Positions 13,851 through 61,500 of a stretch of 64,000 nt of DNA are shown here, piece by piece. The translations under genes and the position numbers were made by a program. The notes under the pieces are model-generated. The model worked only from the letters and a program-made list of their open reading frames with translations, was not told where the DNA came from and ran no database searches. Source of the DNA: Ascidia mentula (Eukaryota > Chordata > Ascidiacea > Phlebobranchia > Ascidiidae); the NCBI GenBank assembly GCA_947561715.1, contig OX387200.1, forward strand, positions 8,062,501 to 8,126,500, read 5' to 3'. How positions within the stretch are numbered: the stretch's first letter is position 1; each line of letters opens with the position of its first letter.

Positions 13851-16621
13851 TTAATCGTTGCTCGCGGTTTCAAAAAAGTTTTTCGTGCTCTTGTCGTTGT
13901 CGACACGGTGGCCTGTTTCCATCAACAACGTTACGCTGTTGTGGTTTGTGGAGTTGTCTGTCGAATTTTCATCTAGTAGATTATTCAACATTACGCTTTC
14001 GGCACTGGTTCGACTGGAGAAGGGAAGAATGTTGCCCGCGTTGCCTGACAATAGGCTTTTGGTCCCTGCGTACGCGTCAGTGGTTTTCACCATCCCTTGG
14101 TGCTGCAGTGTCCCGTTTAAAAGTTCAGCTTCCTCTTCCTGTCACAAAATGACATTTAGGATAACGTAAAGCTCTGTCAAGAATTTAATACCTTCATCGT
14201 TGGCAATTTTTAAATCCACTTAATAGGTTTTGTTTATTTCTTTAGCATGGCTAAATTATTTTTAGTTGCTTGGTTATATCGTTTACGATTTTCAATCAAA
14301 CCGAAACATTTGCCAAACCAAGAAAATGTAGGCTCGACCATATGGTATTTGTTTTTTGTTTATTATTTCTAACTCATCGTAAGAATAAAGGAACTTAAGG
14401 AAGCATCAATCTGATACCAATTCATTATATTACCTTGACAGCTCCAGAATCGAATCTCCCACCATTGCCTCTGTTTCTCATCATAGCATGTTTATGTCTT
14501 GATTCGTGCAGATATTTCTGTGATTGGAAACAGATCTTGTTGAGTATGTTGCAGAGTAGTAAAAGTTTATGTCAAACTACAGTAACTACATTATTTATTA
14601 ATTATAAAGACAGAGATTATAGCAGTCAGAATTTATATTTTTCAACTAGATTATAAACTGAGAAATAAGTTATCGTGTGTTCATAGAAGGTTGAAGCAGT
14701 GGTGAAGTACACCAAATTTTGGGGTATATGTAGTCAATACATTTTTCTTAGTTAATAATCAAAATAAATTAATCTTCTACAGAGTAAATATCAATAAAAA
14801 CCATTCTTCATTAAAGTACAATTCCACACATCTCAAAAATTCATTATCCCAACATAATATATCTGCTACAAAACCACATGTGCATTTTCCCACCTTGCGC
14901 TCCTTAGGCAACCTCCCTTCAGCTTCCAGTTTGGCACGAGCTTGCCTTCGTTTTAATATTCTGTGGTATTGTTTTGCATTTACATACAACGGTTCCTCCT
15001 CTAGGACTTCAGTTTGACCACCAGCTGTTTGTGATAGCTGGACACGTTGCAGGCCCCCAGTACCACTGGGCACCATCTGTAATAATATTTTGGAATATTA
15101 TTATGAATCAAATTTGTATAGTTGCTGGAACCTATGTACTGTGTCTTTTATACATTGCCTGATTACTTTGTGTCACCGGACTATGGACATTTTAACCTTA
15201 TTTTAATATAGTTTTATTAAACTATATTTTTGCCCGGTAAGACATTATGAAATTCCGAAAGAAATGTTTTGATCACAAAAACTGGAAAATGCATATTACA
15301 TGATTTGCATTTGATTGGTAAACACACGCAAATACTGACCATTATAATTCCACCACCTTGCACATTGCCACCAAGACTAACCGCACTCCCTGGTGAAATA
15401 ATTGAAGGGTTGTTGTTAGCTGAGTTTACTTGCTGTAAGACTACAGCTGCTGTTCCCTGCCCAATAGTCTGCACATTGTTGCCTGCAACCTGGAAAATAT
15501 TTCAGGGTAATACAACATTGAATTAGAAATGTTGTTGGGAAACTTCTTACCTGCACAAGCTGTGGTGTATTTGTGTTGTTGCCATCTGCTTGCAAAACAA
15601 CTTGAGCAATGCCATTTTGCTGAAATTACACATTGTTCATGGATTATTATGGCTCTTTATCATAATTATATATATGTGATTTGATTGATACCCGAACCAG
15701 TAGCGCTATTAATACCAAGCAGTAGTTTGGCCATAGTGTGCTCCAGGGTGGTTAATTTGTGTTTTTTGGTACCCAACAAATCAATGTTAACCAAAAGCTA
15801 CTACAAAGTGGAAATTAACATGCCTGCTGGTTTAAAAGCTAGTCCAGTGCCACAATCACCAGTTGCACTGGTGTGACCTATAGGTCGAAACGGTGTGCAC
15901 TTCTACACATTGTGTTTAGTATATTATAATTATAAAAAATCTTTAAATTCAGTTATGACCAAAGTGTATATCTACACATAAACACAAAACATTTTTAACA
16001 CAAATTTAGGACTGAAATATTACAATTCTCTGTCAGAAGTGTTCTTTTTTGTTTTCTATCAGGCTAAAAAGATCTCGGCAAAGATTAAACCCACACCTGT
16101 TGTGGAGCAGGTTGCTGCTGTATCACAAGCTGGGCAGCAGCGTTATTGCCCTGAAGTTGTAACCCAGTTGATGTTTGGACAAATTGAAGTGTGTTGATTA
16201 GGTTTTGTGCTGATGCAGCACCATTGCTTGTGGATATATTCTGAAATGAAAAAACAACATATCACAAACAGATATTCAAAAACCATGTCTAGAGTGTTTT
16301 CAGGACAAGGCACAGGTCTGCACACACATGACAAGTGTTATACATGCATATAACATCAGATTACATGCAAGATATTACATACTGATGTGTTGTTGTTGTT
16401 TTGAATGAGTACTGATGACTGTTGATTAGATTGTTGAACAAGTGGACTTCCATTCATTGCAACAAGCTGAAAAACGAAAATGATTCGTAAAAACCGAACA
16501 TGCAAAACCTTATCAAATGTACAACCTGGTAAGTTTGTTGCCCATTTGGTCCAGTTGTTTGCACCAGCTGGGCTTGAATGGACTCTCCACCATTAAGGCC
16601 AAGTGCATTTTGACCATCCAT
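13851..16621 (-). CDS. NFYA: NF-Y subunit alpha, 365 residues, 8 coding exons
   Basis: Sequence-specific subunit of the trimeric CCAAT-binding factor NF-Y, acting in the nucleus with NF-YB/NF-YC. Minus-strand exons: 16621-16526, 16466-16383, 16240-16097, 15619-15551, 15489-15340, 15076-14894, 14517-14434, 14138-13851 (TAA). All joints keep frame. Residues 1-205 form the Gln/Asn/Ser/Thr-rich activation domain (for example LVIQQQPAPQQ). The conserved core is split over two exons: A1 helix with EEEPLYVNAKQYHRILKRRQ (residues about 208-227), which binds NF-YB/C, and A2 with KYLHESRHKHAMM followed by RNRGNGGRF (243-265), which reads the DNA. The A2 half is diverged from the vertebrate form, where AMARKRGEGGRF is usual, but the basic residues and GGRF that contact the minor groove remain. 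The acidic C-terminal exon (EEEAELL start) is lineage-specific. Convergent with MYBBP1A and divergent from TBC1D2. Confidence 0.96.
15800..15915 (+). repeat. Degenerate copy of hammerhead-bearing repeat
   Basis: In an NFYA intron, antisense to NFYA. It shares agttgca, a perfect GACC-TATA-GGTC stem II, CGAAAC and a downstream CTACACA with the intact copy at 19.5 kb. The catalytic core is CTGGTGT instead of CTGATGA and stem III is lost, so it should be inactive. The upstream part (ctactacaaagtggaa) resembles the body of the 37.5 kb copy. Confidence 0.65.
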
Positions 16622-17596: not shown

Positions 17597-17733
17597 AGGC
17601 CGGGTCCACACTCACGCTTTGCGCCGGCGGATTATTTGTTTGTTTCAATGTCCCAAGCCTACGCCCGCACGCCGGCGTATAAAGAAACAAACAAAGAATC
17701 CGCCGGCGCAAAGCGTGAGTGTGGACCCGGCCT
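17597..17733. mobile_element. 137-bp foldback (MITE-like) element
   Basis: The first about 37 bases (from aggccgggtccacactcacg) are the exact reverse complement of the last 37. After one mismatch the complementarity continues through tttgtttgtttc, giving arms of about 50 bases around a short GC-rich centre that also contains inverted GCCGGCG motifs. The arms are GC-rich in an AT-rich background. There is no coding capacity and no clear target duplication, although CAA/TAA at the edges would fit a 3-bp Harbinger-type duplication with one change. Confidence 0.8.
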
Positions 17734-18793: not shown

Positions 18794-21700
18794 ATGTCAT
18801 GTCCTACTGGTATGCTAATAAGTTTGGAAGATGAAGATCAAAGTTCATCAAAATCTGACAGCGTAAGCTTAAAGATTTATTTTTGGTTGTCTAAGTTATT
18901 GCTTATTTTTGCACTTTTCAAACTTTTGCATTTTTGTTTTCAAAATGCATTGATTATAAATTACTCAGCCTGCAACCTTCTAATTGTGATTATGCAGTCA
19001 GGCATTTTTGTGTTGATCAATCTATTATTGTTGACATTTTTTATATCATATTTCCTTTAGCTCTCTCCACTGACATCTCCAAAAAGTGCAACAGCCAGTA
19101 GTGGATTTGTTCAGGTCTCATCACAAACATCAACCAACAACAAAAAGAATCCAGCAAAGTTATGTGGCTACTTGACGAGAGTCTCTTCAACTGGAATAGT
19201 AAAATGTAAATTTTCCAAAAATGCATGTGAAAATCCAATGAAACAGAACACATTCCACATTCAAGTGTATCTTGCTTTTAACAGTGTCCAAAACAAGATG
19301 GTTTTCTTACACTCCTGATACATGTGAGTTGGTGTTTATGAGAAATCCAGACCAGGAAACTGAAAGCATTGGAAATATGGGTAGAATTCCCCTGCGAAGA
19401 GCATCATTTAATTTTACTGCCTCAAGTCTCCAAGACAACCTTTTCTCAATTACGTCTGATGGAACAACCCACAATTTGCAGGTATAATGTGTACTTGGCT
19501 GTTTGGTCAGTAAAGTCGTCTAAAAGTCACACCAGCTGCACTGATGAGACCTTCTAGGTCGAAACAGTGGCCATCTGTCTGTAGCTTACACAATAATGTG
19601 TACAGTCTGATTGCCATGCAAGTGGTATGAATATTGTATTACAAGCACTAATTCATTTATTTAATACAATATTACATGGTTAAAACGTGTCGTCATTAAA
19701 ATCTTTAAATAAATTCTTTGCCACTGTGTTGGGTTTAGGTGTGTTCTCATAAGGCTTCAAACGAAAAACATTGCTTTTTTTATTCAGGCTTCTGATAGAA
19801 AAACACTAATGTGGTGGATTCAAGAACTGCAGTCACGGCGTCGTGCATTTAACCTTCAGCAAGCAGAAGATTATCCCCAGAAACCAGACTGGCAGGGGTC
19901 TATACAGGGGGCGAGTGTATTTTGGGTTTCAAATACACAGGAAATAAAGCCTGGACTTATTGGTGTTAAACAGTCATCAGTAAAGTCAGGCAAGTGACAA
20001 TATTGTTGGTTTTGAACTACCACAAGTCTTCATTTCTTTGTCCATTGGCATATATACTATAAGAAAAAGTATATGTTTTTTTATTCTTATCTAAAAGTTG
20101 TCTGCTATGGAAGTATAAGGGTCTAATACTTCCTGTCTGTGTGCAATACAGGGTTTGAAAACATATTTTGACATGCAATATTTTTATATCAGTAATCGTG
20201 TGACGTCATCTATTGTGAGTAAAACAGGTTAAAATTTTGTGGAAATATCTTGTCAAAACATTTTTGTAATATTCTTACTCAGATGTCGGCATAGCTCCAG
20301 CTCCATTACGAGTTTTTCAACCTGACGAAGAACCCCCAGACACGGTCGGTGATCAAGCAGCAACGCTTCATAATCGAAGCTCTAGCTTTACCCCAGGAAA
20401 TAGCATTGCCGTTCTTGGTAACAAGTTGCCAATGCCCAGCCTTGGAAACATTAATACAGCATTTACAAATGCAGGTATGGAATTGGCTATTACTGTGGGA
20501 CATGTTGTTTTAGTTGAGAGGGGATTTAGACACTTTTTCTACAAACTACTTGAAATATCACAAATCTTATTAAAATTTATTTCCTCTGAACATTTTGTTT
20601 CACTTAGTTATGTTTCAACAAGTTAATATGTTGTCTGTTTGGTCATGATGCAGTTGATTAGTGGCAAAATTCACATGCAAATTTCACAGCTTTGGTTTCA
20701 AATTACAATAGCTGTTATAAATAGGGATGCACAGAAAGTTCGGTTTGCCGAATTTATTCGGCCGAAACTAAGGTTTTCGCAATTATTCGGTTTCGGCTGA
20801 ATATTTCTGCAAAATTCGGCCGAAACCGAAACTTTTTTATTGCATATAAAGCTGAAACGCAAAGTTTAGAAAAGGTCAAAATCATTGTTTAAACTGTACG
20901 AATATGTTCGTTTCATTTGTTCACTTTCACAGAAATGATAAAAATCAACATTAAGCACTTATGGTGCAGAAGACGAGGTTATTCTTCAAGCGCCAAAAAA
21001 GGCTGTGTGATAGGATAAGATGTAATCCAGTATATGTTTTGTTTAAATTTATTGCGTTTAAATAGATGGTTACCAAAATTAGTTACGGTTTATTCGGCTG
21101 AATTAATTCGGCAACTTTTGCCGAATATTCGGTTTCGGCCGAATATAAAAAGAGCTGTTTCGGTGCATCACTAGTTGTAAAGATATGTGCAAAAAAAGCC
21201 ATATTATTGCAAAGCTGCAGCTTTGTTATAAAGATCTTCCAGTAAACTTGCGGTATATTTGAGGATAAGAAGTTAATGGTTTAGAAAGGGCAAATCATAT
21301 CCATCTTGCATCACTGGTGCCAAATGTGTTTGTTTTATTTGTTAACATCTGGTGTATGTATAATATGTGATAGATAACTTGCAAGAATTGTTTAAAAAGT
21401 TTACAACAAAGAAGATTATGTGATTTAGTAAAATTTACTGATATTGTCTTGCAGGTGAAGCAGCCAAGAAAACATTAAGAAATCAAGCGATAAAATTAAA
21501 ATCTAGTGGTGGCAAAACCGATGATTCAATGATTGGGGGAGCTGTATCAAAATCTCTGGCAGGTGAGAACGAGAAGATTGAATTGCTTTATTCTTGAGAG
21601 TGGTTTAGTCATCAAGGCTTATGTGCATACTTTGTGTGAATCATGAAAAATGGTGACATGTTGATTTATGATGTATAAGGCCCTTTTCCAAAAGGGAAAT

Positions 21701-24700
21701 GATGATATCGATGAATAACTTAGCCTGAATAGAAAATATTGCATTTTGAATTTTCAAATTCTATTTTATCTTCTAACTTGGCATTATAGCTATTAAAATT
21801 GTGTACTTTAAGTCAGTGTTGTCTTACTTATGCTTACGGCTGTCATAATCCCACTTATTTGTGGTGTGTGTTACATTTCAAACTTGTGTATTATATATAT
21901 ATGTATTTAAAAAATCTTTTATTTCCAATTATATTTTTTGTATTGACTATTCTATTTTTATTACTGTAAAAAATATACAGTAAGCTTGCCATGGCGATAC
22001 ACTACTCTTGTTTAAATACAACAATTTGTCAACAACCATGTATTTACATACAAGTATTCCGTCTTAATCTTCCTGTGCGTTTCAGGTGAGGCCTGGCATA
22101 GTGGTTACACAATATGATTTTAATTTTGTCACAGCATCAAGTGCGTTAAACCAAGGCATTCTTCACCCATCCCCCAAAAGATCGAGCACTAATGCCAGTG
22201 ATATGGGTTATGGAAGTTTTATTAAAGGACTAAAAGGGGAAATTTTGCAACTGCACGATGAGATGACAATGATGAAGATGAAGCTGCAAACCAAAGAGGT
22301 TGGTGACAATAAATTGTTGTTGTTGTTTTAAAGAGTTTCGACAGGGTAACATATTTTTGCAAGTTATCCTTTAATTTCATTTATTTGCCAACATGTGTAG
22401 GAGTCGATCCAAGTGTTAAAGCTGGAGCTGGACAAATATGAACAACTTAGCAAAGGTATTTTTCTCAACTGTTAAGTTGCAGTTTTATTTACATGTAAGC
22501 TGCAACAAATTTACCAACCATTCGGATATGCATAATTTTCTTAAGTTGCAATCTTCAATTGAATGGCCAGGCAGATATGTCATTTGCATGGCGATATTGA
22601 TATTTTGTCCAATTATTTTGAATATGTTAGTGATTAAAACAAACTTGACCAATTTAAGTGTTGACTGTTCATACAAATGCTTTATTACAATATGCAACAC
22701 TAATTTTGAGATACAAATAAAGTAATTTCAAGAAACGTTTTTTTAGTTTTACTATAAATAACACAAACCCAGCAAACCAAGTTTTTTGTGTTTATCTGTC
22801 ACAAAAAACATCATTTTTTTAACATTTTTTCTCTGATGCTCAGGAACACTACCTCCACACTCTGTTTTCTCGAACGAGGAACGGAAAATGCGGTCGGAAC
22901 TCATTAGCCTCAAACTGACCAACGAACGACTGCAACAAGAGGGAGATGAAAGCCAGACCAGGGAAAACGCTCTTAAGGAACAGAACTCCATGTTGCAGGA
23001 AATGTTGTCGGTCAAAGACGCGGTTGTGATGCAGCTCAGCAATCAGGTATTACTGAAAAAACGTGAGTTTTTAATTCGCTTGCAAAGGTATATGTGGCGT
23101 TTTGATGGTATTTTAAAGCACGATGACTTAAAACGTTGACGTTTTGGTAAAGAGGGTTTCGGTGCCAAAATGGTGGTTTATTATTTATCATTTCTTGGCG
23201 TAAGAACGGAGACATCTGGAGCTGATGATAAAGTAAGGATCCATTCTATTTGGTTATTTTGGTCCGATTAAATCATTTATTCACTATGTAATTCGTTAAA
23301 TATGAAATCGTTGTTTTGGCTGTCGTGCGTGTTCTGTAAATTTAAACAAACATCCGTCCTGTTGGGCGCACCTGGTCAATTATCATGACAGAACTTGGGT
23401 TGCTTCCTGCCATAAAATATATGGCTACTTTCACGTTCAGTTACACGACCTAGAGCGCAACCACACCCAACTCACCGACGATCACACCAAACTTAAAGAG
23501 GAGAAAAATGAAGAATTCGTCATCTTGTCTCCTGCTACAGCATCAGTGGGTGAAGACATTGACCTGCTTAAGGTATGTCGTGTGTTTTCGGATAGGGTTG
23601 GTTACAAGTTTTCGATCATAAATATATGTGACCTGTTCCAACTAACGGTTCCTTGTTGACAATTCTTTGTCGATGTGGTATCAAATCTGATATGCAATAA
23701 CAGCATAAATGTTGGGTTTAAAGTTGACATACAAAATACAAAATGGCAACTAATGGACTTAATAGTTAGGTACAAGCATGGTATGAATACTGTGATTATA
23801 GTCACCACAAAAGTAGAAGTGTTTGCTTGGCCGTTTGGTCGACAAGATCGTCAACAATAGTCACACCATACTGCTATTTTTGCTGCCAGGCATACTAATT
23901 AATCAAAATCGTTCTTCTGGCACTTAAGTTTCTGAAGTTATTTATTCGAAACCGACGTTTCGTCTGCCATTCGGCGAGACTTCCTCAGGGTCATACAAAG
24001 CTGCACTAATGAGACATATTTGGTCTAAACGTTGTTTTTGCACCTTACAGAATAATATTTAGAGTTAAAACCATCTGGTGGTTTTTAAAATTTAACTACG
24101 GTACGCTGCTAAATAACTCATTATCATTCAATCCAAACTTCCATTTCGTTAATTATAAACATACAAGGAAAATATACACGAACTCGTTAACAAGCAAGAA
24201 AAAAAATTGTCGTTGCCTTTTTCATGTAAACAAAAAAGAGAATGACAACCTAATCAACAACAATAACAAAAACAACAACAGTGTCGCCGGCAATGTTTAA
24301 TTTGTGAGTAAGCTTACTAAAAACCGACTTCGTCCGCAAAACTTCCGCTTTGTCCGTAAACTTCTCACTAAAAAGGCGTTGTTTGCATTCGCGCCGGGCA
24401 TATTTTAAAGTTGCGTAGGCGGCGATTTGTTATCAGCCTTAATGTCGCACAGGACCAGGCCGAGGGTTACATGATGCAGAACAAGCTGTTGAATAACGAG
24501 ATCTTGGAGCTCGCCAACTTGCGGCAGATGGACGGCGAACGACTGGAATCCATGCACGACAAAGTACGTAGACTGATTGCATCTAGGGTTTATTGCGTGA
24601 ATAAGGAGGGGATATACGTTTTCATTAAGGTTTGATGAGGTTGCATTATACCGAAGGCGCCAATATCACACGTGCCCGTAAATTGGAACTGATATGTGTT

Positions 24701-27700
24701 TGGTGGAACATCGTGTTGCCGTATTTGTGCGTAACCTCTCCAATATGTTACTACACTGTATTTTTTTGTAAACCAATGCAATGTAACTTTGTATTGTTCG
24801 ACATATTTATTACTGAGCATGATCAACAAAAAAATTTGCAAAATTCTGGGGCATAAAACAGGGATTTATCAGTGATTTCTAAAAAAGGGAAGAAAAAACC
24901 AGAACTGTATATTTTCTAATGAAATGTTGGTGTTAATCATAACTGCTCACTTCTCCATGCGACATTGACACCCGATCCATATCACCAGCATCAAATTACC
25001 AGTCACAACACACCACGAAAGCTTTTCCAAACTGACGCGCGATTTTCACAGATAAAACTGAAGGAGGCCCAGTACTGTCAGCTCAACAGCAAATACCTTG
25101 TCCTGCTGGCGGAAATGAACAAACCAAGATCGGAGAGTGTTGGTCTCGCTGTTGCCGGGGAGAAAGTGGCGCCTTCCGACAAGGACAAGAAGGACATGGT
25201 TAAGATTTTGATACAAGAAGCCCTGGCAGAAACGTCCGTCGTTACTACCAGAAAGTAAGGAAAATTTGTTAAGATTTCCGAACGCACATTTCCTCGCAAT
25301 GGACAGCGTAAAATTAATATATTACTTAACTTCAAAAAGCTAGCCTACTGTAGTTCAATAAATGTTGAGACTGGTAAGCACAGATCAGTGTCGGTGCAGA
25401 ATAACTGATAAAGTTATTTGCATATATACTTGCGACTATTTGCCTAAGTTTTGCGTCAATTTATCACGTTGCGGAGTAAAATTTGCATCAAAGGCTTGCC
25501 ACGTGTCAGTTTGTTTCTTTTAATATTTTATGTTATTTATAATTTTATGTACGGTAAGTATTTAGTTATTTATGTAAATTCAATTAGACCTCGGGAAGCG
25601 CTTGACTTTGAAAACCCTCGGGTTATTTCAGCGTCTCCCTGCCTTCACAGCCATAACCTTTTATTTGCTCAACTATAATGTGTTTGAATTTGAATTTGAA
25701 ATGAATGAAGATGTTACAAATACTTCATCATATCTAGCTACTGTCCTCCAAATCTCCAGTCCGAATTACGTCAATCCCCAGTATATTTCCGTGGTTTCAA
25801 TTGTTTAATTTGCAAACGCAAACATTTACACAAGCATATTGTTAATAACCACCACATTTTTCACAGAGAGAGCAAATACGATGTGTTTGGATTCACATGT
25901 CTTCCGGAAGACGACGCAGAATCTTCTCTACTGGCATCCGCGAGTCAGATGGAGAAAAGAGCATCCGACATCATCTTCTCACTCAACGAATATAACGCAT
26001 CCATCGACGCGAAGTGGCAGAACTACTTTGCAGCAAGCAGGTGTGACAGTGTTTAATTTTTAATGCAAGAGCTCGGCCGTCGGAGCCGCATGGGGCTTTT
26101 AAATAGTGATGCACCGAAACAGCATTTTTTTTATTCGGCCGAAACCGAATATTCGGCAAAAGTTGCCTAATAAATTTGGCCGAATAAACCGAAACCAATT
26201 TTGTTATCCATCTCTTTAAAATCGCAATAAATTTAAAGAAAACATGTGCTGGAGTACATCTGATCCTATCATACAACCTTTTATTGGCACTTAACAAATG
26301 CAAACAGAACTTCCGGTGCATCCCTACTTTTTAATACGTTTGTTGTGCCTTAATAGACACGGAAAGCTTGTGAAAAAACAATAATATATATACAAAATCA
26401 AAATTTTACACTTTCGCTGCTGTTTGGTTGCAATTTTTTAGAGCGGTGATAAACGTGTGACGGATATGCATTAGGCGGTCAAAACATGCCCGCTAACAGG
26501 GTTTATCTCAGTCATGACCCAAGAGACTCTTTGAATTGCCAACCTCTGGCTTGTTTTGATAAACTAGTATAATCTTCAAGCAGTTGGTTGCTGATGCTGT
26601 CTGTCGGCATATTGCTCACAGAGAGGTCTCTGACAAAATATTACTAACAGTTTACTGAAACCTTAATGTCTTGGATTTGTTCGATTGAGCAGGGGCGACT
26701 TACTACGTAACGAGGACACGAAATTGTTGATTCGCTACGGCGTTCCGCATGACTTGCGACCGAAAGTTTGGACATGGATGGTTAAACACAGAACTCTGCA
26801 ATTACGGTACGAAAAACCTAATCATGTGTAGAGATAAGTGTAGCATTCGCTGTTTTTGAGAAATTCGCAACGCAACTATTCTTTCAACCAATTAAAACGC
26901 TAGCTGGTAAATTTCGAGGTTTGTGGAGTATTGTGTTGTCTTCCCTTGTAACATTTAACAGATCATTCCCGCTAAGAAATAACACTATGCGTGAAGTATT
27001 TCCAGAAACGAAACAAGTTCAAAGTTTAAGTTCGTGCAAAAAGATAGCTCAACGAAAAGAAAGCAGTCACTGACGTTAATTAAAGCGAAATCCTCCACTT
27101 ACCTTGTAACGTAATCTTGTCTTCACACTGAACATAGCAAATCTCTTCAGTGGCGGGATTCAGCCGGTTCGCACCGGTTCTATAGAACCGTCTTACGAAA
27201 TTTTATGAGATCAGCGAACCGGTTAGTATCACTGGTTGCTGTCAATGATTTTTTGCATCTCAAAAGCCGTTAAAAATATGACTTTTGTCATAGAACCTGC
27301 TGACAAAAAATTTGAATCCCACAACTGAATTTCTTCCGCGGCAGTGTTAGATCTCTGCTAAAACCATTGGTTCATACCGCTACACGTTATATGATAGTGT
27401 ATTATATGTCTTTAGAAATAGGTTGGATCCAGACGGCTCTTACTACAAGAAGCTTTGTCAGAGAAGTGTGGCGCCCCTAGCGGCGAAACAGATCGAACTC
27501 GACCTGTTAAGGACATTACCCAACAATAAACATTTTGTGAGCCTTTCTTCGGATGGCATTGAACAACTGCGTCGGGTTCTGCGAGCATTCAGCTTACATA
27601 ACCCCAGCATCGGGTAAGTGGTGATTACATCTTCCCGTCTTTTTCACTATATCTAAACTTTTCCGGACAACTTTTACCTAAATGAACATACGCGAAACCA

Positions 27701-36400: not shown

Positions 36401-39400
36401 CACGAACTCGACGTGTTCGTCGATGCATGGGAAGAAGCGATCTATCTGGGACTGATCATAGTGGAGTTCTTCAGCCATGCCCCGTGCGTAAATCCTCTGC
36501 ATGATCTTCAGCGTGGTGAGATAGTTGCGTTCGGTCTGAATAAACTCTGCACATACAAAAGCGCGATATTTATTAAAGGGAATACACAGTAATGATGATG
36601 GACACAGTGGTGTGTGAAACGTCTGCTCAATGACTGCATATTTGTTTCGGCCTTACTATTCGGATTACACAGTGTTGCCAGAAAATGCAAAAAGGCTTGG
36701 GTCAGATTAGTTTAGTTATGATGATCTTTGCCAGCCACCTAAATGCCTGGGATTTATTACCTGTCTTTGTATTTTGTCGATTATTATGTTCTGTTCTCCA
36801 ACTTTAAATGTAGGAAGGGCCAGCTCCCACATTACCAGAAAAATAAGGTACTTTTAACAACAAATAACAACCTCCAATAAACACCTGTTATTTCATTAAA
36901 AGCGGAATATCCCCAGTAGGCCACTCATTAATTATTTACAGGGGGAAAAGCGCGAAAATCGAAGCTAAAGTCGCGCTTGCGTACCGTATATGTTGTCTTG
37001 GCGTTTAATGTCCTTCTTGGACATTTTCTTGAGAACTTTTTTGTCGGCGGTGACACTCCATGCTTCCGGCTCATCCGGTTTAAGCATCAAATCCGGGTCG
37101 TTGTCGAGCTCGATGGTGTGAGACGAGACTGGAGAACAATTATAAATATGAAAATTGCATGCAAAGCAGGTGACCTTGCGCCAATGCTAAGGTTATCGGA
37201 AGCTTGTTCCGCTCTTTAGCACAGCTCGCTCCAGCGCAAGAAAACGTGGCACATAGAAATCTTACAGTTACTTACGTTCGTCCAATGACTCGATAGAACC
37301 GGTCGTCGGATCACGACTAAAAAAACAAAAGGCCCCTTGATAAATATTTGATAAGAAACACACAACATTTCATAAAAGTGGAGCCAATAATATGAATTGT
37401 GTAAGCTGCACACAGATGGCCACTGTTTCGTCGTATAAAGTCTCATCAGTGCAGCTGGTGTGACCATCAGACGACTTTGCCGACCAAACGGCCAAGTAAA
37501 GACTTCCACTTAGTAGTGCAGCTTACACAATACACAATATTTCGCCTGCGGAAACTTGTTGTTTTAAAACTGTGAGTCCAGCCACCAGCAAACATGGGTC
37601 ACGTGACAAGGCTCACCTGTTAATTTGGAATAGAGGAGGCGGTCCTGCGTCGTCACCATCCTCTTCATAAAACGACGACCTGCGGTTCATAAACAGGTGA
37701 GACTCAGATACGTGGCTAAAGGTTGATCACCTTTTGCGCGCTATGCACTGGCTCATATACGCGTGCAAACGGCGTTCCCCAATCTCTGTGCAACCACATC
37801 CGCTGTGGGGTAATACCGCATTGTGGTAAGCAACAGAAGCGCGTTGGTGTTTGGATATCTTATATGACTCCGCTAGGCGATCGCAAAAAAAATAAGCGTA
37901 GAACGGGCTATGGGTTGGGTTTTCTGGTTATCATGGACGGTGGCTTGTGAATATTGTTTAACAACGAATTTGGGGCGGTAAATATGGCTTTTGAATTTAT
38001 GAGCAATTATAAAACATAATTAAACTGATGGGCAAGTACAAACTTTAAAAAAATAAAATATATCAATTCCACTAAACGTCGTCAACAGCCATTTAAGTAA
38101 TATGAAAAAACGCAGAGTTAAAGGTGTAAGGAAAACCACAGTGGGCAAACAACTCACCTGTTACTTTTGTTGTTTGTGGAATATTGGTCGGGTTGGTTGA
38201 CTGACAGCTTGCCCAAGGTCTGTGATAAATAACAAAGAAACGGTCACAAATACGCAGATGATTTCCCAGTGATCGCATGTAAATACATGCGAAGAAAAAT
38301 TTAAAGATATCTCGTGTTAAAAAGAAAGTAATTCGAATTTATTCGGCAAGGATGTGTCAATCGATATTCTTACCGACAGTTGGTATTATTTGCATCTCAT
38401 TCTAAGCGTTACATGAAAATTGTTAGTGCAACTGGTACAAGTGGTCGGTTTGTGCATTCTCGACTTCGTAGCAACAACGAGAGGGAAAGTGAACTTACCG
38501 AAACTGGACGTGTTGAGTTGCTGCGTGATTGCGGACCGCTGGGGTAGGCGGGGTTCGCAACTGTGTGAAAACAAAAACCGAGATTTTATTTTTGTGTGAA
38601 TGGGAGGTTACCCTGCGGTATACACAAAAATAGAGTTTACTACGTAAATCACAAAAAGCCATTTCAAGGACGGGGAACTTTCGTTACAACCAGAAACCGG
38701 TCAAAACAAAACTGAGAAAACAGTTTCGTGGTGACGATCTATACAAAAAAAATCGTCCAAGCGATTGTTGGGGCAAAAATTGCGAATTCATATTCGGAGG
38801 TAACTCTCGTGCGTTCAGCGACAAAAAATGTTCTTTGCCCAAACATATATTTAAAGTAATTTGTTTGTCTGGGCAGCACCTACGCGCAACGGCTGACCAT
38901 ACGTAAGCGGAAGGTGTCACACAACCGCGTGTTAAAATAATACGTGTCGTCACATGATGATGTAAAGATACGTAACGCATGAGCTCTGTTATACTTTGCT
39001 ATGCATATAAGTCTTGGTATAGAACCATAAGGACACCGGTAATAATAGATTTTCGATGTCCAAGGTTTCGTGGTTATATATAAATTACACCAAGGTCTCC
39101 AAGGTTTTCTGCTCCATGATTCCATTTTTATAATTGAAATTTGCAATGGTTTGTGTAATTACATAAAAAAAGTTTTACTACACAGCAGTAATGCACGGTT
39201 CTGCTGTTGGAGCCACGTAAAATGAGAAATTTTAAAATTCCGAATTTTTTGAATCCCAGCACCCTCCCAAAAAAATACCATTCCCGACGATGTTGCAATA
39301 TGTAAACATTGTAGGTATGTCTTCACCAGTCCGCAACTGTGTTAGTACTATTTCATAACGTACCAAACTACTACCACGCCAATTACTTTACGATAATAAG

Positions 39401-60545: not shown

Positions 60546-61362
60546 AATACTGATGCTCCGCTTGGTTACAGTTCAGCGCACTATGGCGCTTGCAAAAAGT
60601 TTTAATACGCCTAGTGGTTTTGCTTTTGTTCTAATATCTGACGAAATAGATACGCTTTTAAAGCTGGTCATAAAAAAACTGACAAAAAGAATCCTTCAAC
60701 CCCATGCAGCTGCGTTCGATGACCTGGTAATGTTACACAGCATTGGAGCAGTACAAAGCTTTGGCAAAACACTTGCCAATCTACAACTATAAACTGCAAT
60801 ACCTAATTTTGACATATGTCCAACCCAATAGGCAACAAAACAGCACCATTACCACCACGGCGCGACAAAATCAGCAAATAAGGTGCAAAAATGCAACCCA
60901 TTCTTTGTTATCAGCAATTACCAAACGTCATATACAACCAGCGTTGTGACGTCACAATACTCGTTGTGCGTCAGGAGAAAGCGGCGCGGGGATAATGTAC
61001 AAGTGAGTATCCGGACGTGATGGCAAGCGCCAAATAGCCGCAATTGGAAATCGAAGGGAAGTTGGCCTTGTTAACCTGTGGGTGTTAAGAGAATCAATGT
61101 AGCATCCAAACAACGCGTAATTAAGGCTACAACTCGACCTTCAGATGCATAATAGCAAAAAGAAAGGCCATGGCACTGTTTCCACAGTTAAAAAAGTAAG
61201 TTCATGTTATGTGCAGCATTATTATCAGTCACATTCTCGCCTAAATCGTCGAACATACATTTAACGCAAACCTAGCACATATGTAGCAAATACCAATCAT
61301 TCAAAAAAATATAATTTATGAAATCCGAATATGGATGCACCTACTTTGGTGCCCAACAGATG

Positions 61363-61500
61363 ACTGTGATTATATAGTCACCCCAAAGTGGAAGCCTTTG
61401 TCTGGACGTTTGGCCGACAAATCGTCTATAATAGTCACACCAAGCTGCACAGACGTATTAATTGGAAACAGTGGTCATCTGTCTGAAGCTCACATAATCT
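61363..61500 (+). repeat. Degenerate hammerhead-bearing repeat copy
   Basis: The body (agtggaagc, gtttggccgac, tcgtctataatagtcacacc) aligns with the 23.8 and 37.4 kb copies. The ribozyme part keeps AGCTGCA (61443-61449), GAAAC, stem III ACAG/CTGT with a seven-base loop, and C at H17 (61483). The CTGATGA core has become CAGACGT and stem II is lost. Confidence 0.72.

Follow-up and report, generated by a model that had tools for sequence, protein, structure and literature searches.

The hammerhead motif in an intron of a TBC1D2B-like gene of Ascidia mentula is very probably part of a non-autonomous element of the metazoan non-LTR retrozyme kind, presumably copied by an enzyme of Penelope-like elements (PLEs). 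Most likely, the intronic copy rides in the gene as a passenger and is not a switch for it. The window analyzed here is the whole 64,000-nucleotide stretch of contig OX387200.1, and all positions below are counted from its first letter.

A type I hammerhead motif in an intron of a TBC1D2B-like gene

The motif occupies positions 19534 to 19586 of the plus strand. The 5′ strand of stem I, AGCTGCA (19534 to 19540), pairs with the 3′ strand, TGTAGCT (19580 to 19586). Between them lie the catalytic core segment CTGATGA (19541 to 19547), stem II, GACCT-TCT-AGGTC (19548 to 19560), the core segment GAA (19561 to 19563), stem III, ACAG/CTGT, with the loop TGGCCAT that holds the palindrome TGGCCA (19564 to 19578), and C17 (19579), 3′ of which cleavage is predicted. 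Stems I, II, and III comprise 7 bp (one of them G-U), 5 bp, and 4 bp. The features of a type I hammerhead, namely the core CUGANGA...GAA, A15.1-U16.1, H17, and three stems with stem I open, are all found in the window copy, with all 16 pairs and every core base intact. The initial annotation had described a complete type I hammerhead, and all the bases that it named are found at these positions. The cleavage site predicted from the sequence likewise coincides with the cut that it had placed between 19579 and 19580, preceded by 98 intron bases when counted from the 5′ splice site.

The intron runs from 19482 to 19787 on the plus strand, with GT at 19482 to 19483 and AG at 19786 to 19787. It is supported by the TBC1D2B-like protein of Phallusia (P0121), in which the flanking residues are contiguous (...HNLQ|ASDRK...). 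The host gene encodes a PH domain and a RabGAP-TBC domain, which bears out the location in a RabGAP intron that had been claimed for the motif. Its relatives are the TBC1D2B-like proteins of Phallusia mammillata (66% identity), Clavelina, and Ciona (three matches among 7990 scored candidates).

A structural descriptor (CUGANGA, stem II of at least 4 pairs, GAA, stem III of at least 3, H17, and stem I of at least 5) returned a single match on both strands of the 64-kb window and none in 744 first-order Markov windows. No Rfam family reached its gathering score in the window; at a relaxed level, the best hammerhead scores were 17.6/56.3 bits for RAGATH-1 and 17.3/48.5 bits for Hammerhead_3. Thus, the covariance-model search that had been proposed as a check on the motif gave hammerhead scores under the Rfam gathering threshold, one of the two outcomes that together had been said to refute it.

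The motif lies in a truncated repeat copy flanked by a target-site duplication

BLASTN to a ∼285-bp unit, together with the genome search, identified positions 19495 to 19592 (plus strand) as a 98-bp, 5′-truncated, retrozyme-like insertion of a repeat that we call family A. The insertion starts 13 bases into the intron, carries the hammerhead on the sense strand of the gene, and ends at the short end site described below. It is flanked by an 11-bp target-site duplication, with the left copy, ATAATGTGTAC (19484 to 19494, plus strand), identical to the right copy, ATAATGTGTAC (19593 to 19603, plus strand). An earlier hint that the motif might stem from a repeat is thus confirmed, as it sits in a truncated copy of a ∼285-bp repeat with a target-site duplication. 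The copy is a truncated monomer and not a tandem.

Three further family A copies were found in the window. The second, at 37375 to 37518 on the minus strand, holds a hammerhead at 37402 to 37458 with G at position 17 and three of the five stem II pairs; by eye, this copy lies apparently in sense orientation in an intron of a minus-strand gene with a RhoGEF domain. The third (61330 to 61497, plus strand) was recognized by family comparison and is decayed. The fourth (23797 to 24047, plus strand) is also decayed and, as judged by eye, seems to be interrupted around 23869 to 23996 by a Penelope-like fragment that resembles the 3′ end of a PLE. The family model additionally detected, with 30.0 bits, a hammerhead at 15859 to 15903 (plus strand) that is decayed and has no normal stem III, and the upstream part of this copy (15700 to 15903) looks by eye like family B, which is described below.

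The ends of the 37375 to 37518 copy had suggested a miniature inverted-repeat element (MITE) with a terminal inverted repeat. We dropped this reading because of the inverted pieces, the variable 5′ truncation, and the alternate 3′ ends of the family. Separately, the window contains a near-perfect, MITE-like inverted repeat at 17597 to 17733 (two 50-nt arms, 98% complementary, 37-nt spacer) and an inverted pair of a longer repeat at 20997 to 21176 and 26101 to 26282 (arms of 120 and 70 nt, 84 to 89%).

Two tandemly arrayed families carry the hammerhead across the genome

Searching the genome with the window copy gave at least 43 matches, with only 40 candidates scored. Thirty loci were fetched (L001 to L030, L001 being the window copy itself), and a second genome query added 20. 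Two of the family A loci, L074 and L075, carry two hammerheads each, 286 and 284 bp apart, while L109 has six in a row at spacings of 285, 286, 285, 285, and 285 bp, with four units of equal length that differ from the first by 0 to 2 bases. Thus, the family A unit measures ∼285 bp; its GC content is 0.46 in the one unit taken from L075. A sister family, B, shares stem I, the core, and stem II with family A but has another stem III loop, and is arrayed in tandem with a period of 290 to 291 bp. In one array (G000:C70:2551495-2554605), family B matches 11 times at intervals of ∼291 bp; the first 7 matches lie on the minus strand and the next 4 on the plus strand.

An exact hammerhead pattern covering both families matched 825 + 784 = 1,609 places in 195.8 Mb, and its reversed control matched 0 + 0. 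The gathering thresholds of RF00163, RF00008, and RF03152 were reached neither by the window copy nor by the family loci searched. On 12 family-copy loci and three Penelope-like loci, the Rfam scores stayed below threshold (best 30.1/56.3; Hammerhead_1 19.3/34), and the type I model RF00163 had no match over the genome and none in the control genomes. Because the family loci are also sub-threshold, the curated Rfam models seem to miss these families. The sub-threshold scores would by themselves fit a chance resemblance to the hammerhead; set against the absence of any match in 744 simulated windows and the 1,609 pattern matches versus none in the reversed control, the probability of such a resemblance is vanishingly small.

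Among the first ∼100 of the 1,609 places, the stem III loop contains the palindrome variants TGGCCA, TAGCTA, GTGTACAC, and GTGTATACAC; shuffled loops gave equally long palindromes in 4 to 11% of cases. From these variants it may be suggested, but no more than that, that the loop stays palindromic although its sequence varies.

Family copies appear to decay neutrally after insertion

The window copy departs from the family majority at two of the 57 motif positions: a base of loop II and a base of stem I whose change has turned a G-C pair into G-U. We found such intactness to be common among sister copies. In family A, 67 occurrences were examined, and 50 of the 61 with the right length keep the core, A15.1-U16.1, and H17, with 44 of the 61 also keeping the stems (the loss of a single pair across stems I and II was tolerated). 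In family B (30 examined), the core, A15.1-U16.1, and H17 are kept in 25 of 29 and the stems, too, in 24 of 29. For both families, the loci were fetched as best matches, which biases the intact share upward.

Changes hit the core as often as other positions (21/793 versus 78/2684; P = 0.81), and among 49 sequences, no pair had changed on both sides. The lack of covariation can be explained by copies that are too young, and it means that the hammerhead fold is assigned by agreement with the known motif and not by covariation. Together, the lack of core-specific conservation and of two-sided changes suggests that the copies decay neutrally after insertion, and nothing marks the window copy as an exception.

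Paired short and long ends resemble those of Penelope-like insertions

Family copies are 5′-truncated and often begin with an inverted piece of their own unit; at L016, this piece is longer than one unit. Of 32 family A copies, 17 share a stretch of at least 10 nt between their 3′ flank and the upstream sequence, compared with 44 of 961 cross-locus controls. The 3′ ends form mainly two classes. Counted from the end of the motif, those of the 67 family A occurrences fall at +0 to +9 (44), +12 to +21 (7), and +27 to +47 (12), with 4 running on into another unit, while those of family B (26 judged of 30) fall at +10 to +13 (4) and +29 to +46 (19), with 3 running on; the borders between these classes are blurred by chance likeness of the flanks and by small indels.

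The two classes were paired within insertions. Where an insertion has two opposite ends, 24 of 25 combine a short end (+4 to +20) with a long one (+30 to +73), and the longer end lies ∼30 nt beyond the shorter. The single exception, L062, has two short ends. The pairs were read by eye at 25 loci; L066, which lacks a forward end, and L065, whose ends share one orientation, were left out, as were loci showing one end only. After removal of three duplicated loci, 21 of 22 pairs were still short/long, where about half would be expected (P about 5 × 10⁻⁶).

GIY-YIG matches are frequent in this genome; at least 121 were found when 150 of 382 candidates were scored. From these, four PLE stretches (L105 to L108) were retrieved, two of which, L105 and L106, are in tandem; three scanned frames of 801 to 872 amino acids contain GIY-YIG above the Pfam cutoff and a reverse transcriptase (RT). 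At L107, GIY-YIG is above the cutoff and the RT (E = 0.00018) below it. Other RT matches lie inside huge uninterrupted frames of 19197, 10416, 8955, and 3977 amino acids (G000:C51:61115-61897, C49:67928-68647, C15:42805-43587, and C21:43716-44498, respectively), as if coding repeats were arrayed in frame.

A search with L107 listed 40 main copies, including the query. The remaining 39 end between query positions 138 and 156 (median 143), and five inverted partners end at 113, 113, 77, 107, and 114, making four of the five 29 to 36 nt shorter; as this listing is confined to best matches, PLE copies with short ends may be underrepresented in these counts. Thus, ends that fit two RT start positions ∼30 to 40 nt apart, with an optional tail, were found both in the repeat and in the L107-type PLE. 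Just such an arrangement, with two internal RT start sites and an optional tail of 30 to 40 bp, is described for a Penelope-like element of Anolis (PMC11167929). In that system, the start site was equal for both target strands in vitro, and hammerhead mutants inserted as well as the wild type (PMC11167929), which is at odds with a strict strand rule and with cleavage being required for insertion. We conclude that retrozyme insertions look like Penelope-like insertions; by analogy, the same enzyme may move both.

The end offset common to the repeat and the PLEs, in a genome rich in GIY-YIG matches, also raises the question of whether the motif might be a piece of an autonomous PLE's pseudo-LTR and not of a separate non-autonomous element. 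In 2 of 30 other RT loci (L053 and L055), a family A copy lies near the RT match, and L053 also holds, by eye, a Penelope-like piece. By eye, minimal hammerhead-like motifs of the form CTGAAGAAG...CGAAACGT occur in the non-coding part of the PLEs (L106:447 and 3114; L107:2963), and a relaxed descriptor did not call them. We consider the pseudo-LTR origin quite unlikely, however, because units arrayed every ∼285 bp leave no room for an 800–amino acid open reading frame, because the PLE motifs are, by eye, of the minimal CTGAAGAAG...CGAAACG type, and because the family motif is absent from L105 to L108 (4 PLE loci and 30 RT loci checked). The family model had no match on the four PLE loci, so the unit and the PLEs have no proven sequence in common, which counts against the retrozyme explanation preferred here.

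A SINE-like element moved by a LINE would likewise be short, non-autonomous, 5′-truncated, and flanked by target-site duplications, and RTs are abundant in the genome (at least 150 RVT_1 matches, with 150 of 1254 candidates scored). No tRNA was found in four loci, which speaks against a tRNA-derived SINE. Moreover, the tandem arrays and the two alternating 3′ ends match the behavior of PLEs, in a comparison that covered PLEs. A LINE-driven origin is therefore very unlikely, and copying by a Penelope-like enzyme remains the preferred reading.

Predicted folding points to a possible dimeric ribozyme

Folding energies ignore tertiary contacts, so that predictions for the lone motif are a caution and not proof: all 16 pairs of the window motif form together with a probability of 0.020 in isolation and of 0.001 or less with each flank tested. 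Stem II of the isolated motif is predicted with a probability of 0.93; in the fold preferred by the window and the family A motifs alone, stem III (probability 0.04 to 0.05, with 0.04 for the window monomer) gives way to pairing of CACUG with CAGUG. For the family B motif alone, the hammerhead is the minimum-energy fold, with a stem III probability of 0.25. In a circular A unit, stems I, II, and III have probabilities of 0.82, 0.92, and 0.05, and in a circular B unit, of 0.00, 0.46, and 0.00.

Homodimers of A, of the window copy, and of B are each predicted to form a double hammerhead in which stem III pairs between the strands, as in the minimum-energy fold of the window homodimer, with a gain of 12 to 13 kcal/mol. 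Few loop permutations did as well (27/630 for A, 23/630 for the window copy, and 19/600 for B). When variant loops were placed in the family A frame, B2, B3, and D were predicted to dimerize as a double hammerhead, while A2, C, and E were not. Among natural variant copies, a double hammerhead was predicted in two of eight (L112 and L116 only), and this low agreement lowered our confidence in the retrozyme explanation. For the main families A and B, the modeling points to a possible dimeric ribozyme.

These predictions bear on whether the intronic copy could have been domesticated, with self-cleavage of the TBC1D2B pre-mRNA regulating splicing as proposed for RECK. The intact core and 16 pairs, the sense orientation, and the proximity to the 5′ splice site would fit such a role, and the portions of PMC3088659 and PMC6155905 used here document intronic hammerheads in mammals and other amniotes. 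Nevertheless, the motif sits in a retroelement insertion that is truncated and bordered by a target-site duplication, 44 of the 61 measurable family A occurrences (67 examined, best matches) pass the same intactness test, and the monomer with its flanks is predicted to misfold. We regard domestication as most unlikely. The initial annotation had noted that self-cleavage could compete with splicing. That this is likely finds no support in the 98-bp truncated insertion with its target-site duplication, in the modeled preference of the isolated motif for another fold, or in a core that is no better conserved in sister copies. Self-cleavage of the pre-mRNA by the intronic copy is possible, perhaps at a low rate; because the lone copy is predicted to misfold, it is probably weak.

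Discussion

The steps by which such an element might spread can be outlined conditionally. The ∼285-bp units, sometimes in tandem, would give rise to a multimeric transcript that is cut by its own hammerheads, which would probably act as dimers joined by the palindromic loop of stem III. The resulting unit-length RNA would be circularized, and a Penelope-like RT with a GIY-YIG endonuclease would copy the circular RNA into new sites from two alternative template starts. One 5′-truncated copy would have landed 13 bases into the TBC1D2B-like intron, where it is presumably a neutral passenger. The more specific proposal, that ascidian hammerhead retrozymes are carried by PLE enzymes and that twin-primed insertions use both starts, one per target strand, which would leave one end nearly always ∼30 nt longer, is in our judgment evenly balanced between right and wrong. 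The equal start sites on both target strands in vitro (PMC11167929) lowered our confidence in it.

In the sections of Cervera and de la Peña (2020; PMC7229834) drawn on here, metazoan non-LTR retrozymes are characterized by a type I hammerhead in tandem units of ∼170 to 400 nt, GC content below 50%, target-site duplications longer than 4 bp, co-existence with PLEs, the lack of LTR, PBS, PPT, and coding capacity, and expression as linear and circular RNA of unit length; the enzyme that moves animal retrozymes is left open there, with PLEs as a strong candidate. The ascidian repeat shares the tandem units of ∼285 bp (A and B), the GC content (0.46 in one unit), the target-site duplications, and, as far as those sections describe it, the co-existing PLEs. 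In contrast to the known elements, it comes from a new host, and its linear and circular RNAs are putative. The paired short and long ends are not described in the same sections of PMC7229834, and titles in the literature on retrozymes, Penelope, and reverse transcription name no paired ends in retrozymes. Similarly, titles and abstract openings in the literature on hammerheads in ascidians, tunicates, and Phallusia mention no ascidian retrozymes; the part of PMC8704543 used here notes nine type I loci in Didemnum vexillum.

Three other systems invite comparison. PLEs with minimal hammerheads were reportedly described by Cervera and de la Peña in 2014. Such PLEs (PMC11167929) resemble the ascidian repeat in their tandem and inverted partial copies and in two ends ∼30 nt apart; however, the ascidian units are arrayed without room for an RT/GIY-YIG open reading frame, have a stem III of 4 bp where the PLEs have none, and end at another distance from the hammerhead. 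For hammerheads of newts and salamanders, the passages of PMC7229834 and PMC6155905 considered here state that the dimer is the active form because stem III is weak. To judge from these passages, the ascidian motifs share with those satellite or retrozyme dimers the palindromic stem III loop and, in A and B, a dimer predicted to be more stable than the monomer, but their 4-bp stem III is longer than the amphibian one and the activity of the dimer is a prediction. The RECK and C10orf118 hammerheads are also intronic; according to the part of PMC3088659 used here, they are conserved across mammals (RECK also in birds) and were cleaved in vitro, whereas the ascidian motif is one of many copies.

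For the TBC1D2B-like gene, the result is sobering: with over a thousand sister copies in the genome, an intact-looking intronic ribozyme is not evidence, let alone proof, of regulation. For the element, a known kind has been found in a new host, and the interesting part is the end signature that it shares with PLEs. This signature suggests that each target strand primes at a template site of its own. Being countable, it provides a direct genomic test, applicable to any animal in which retrozymes and PLEs occur together, and, if true, the paired-end rule would identify the helper of animal retrozymes.
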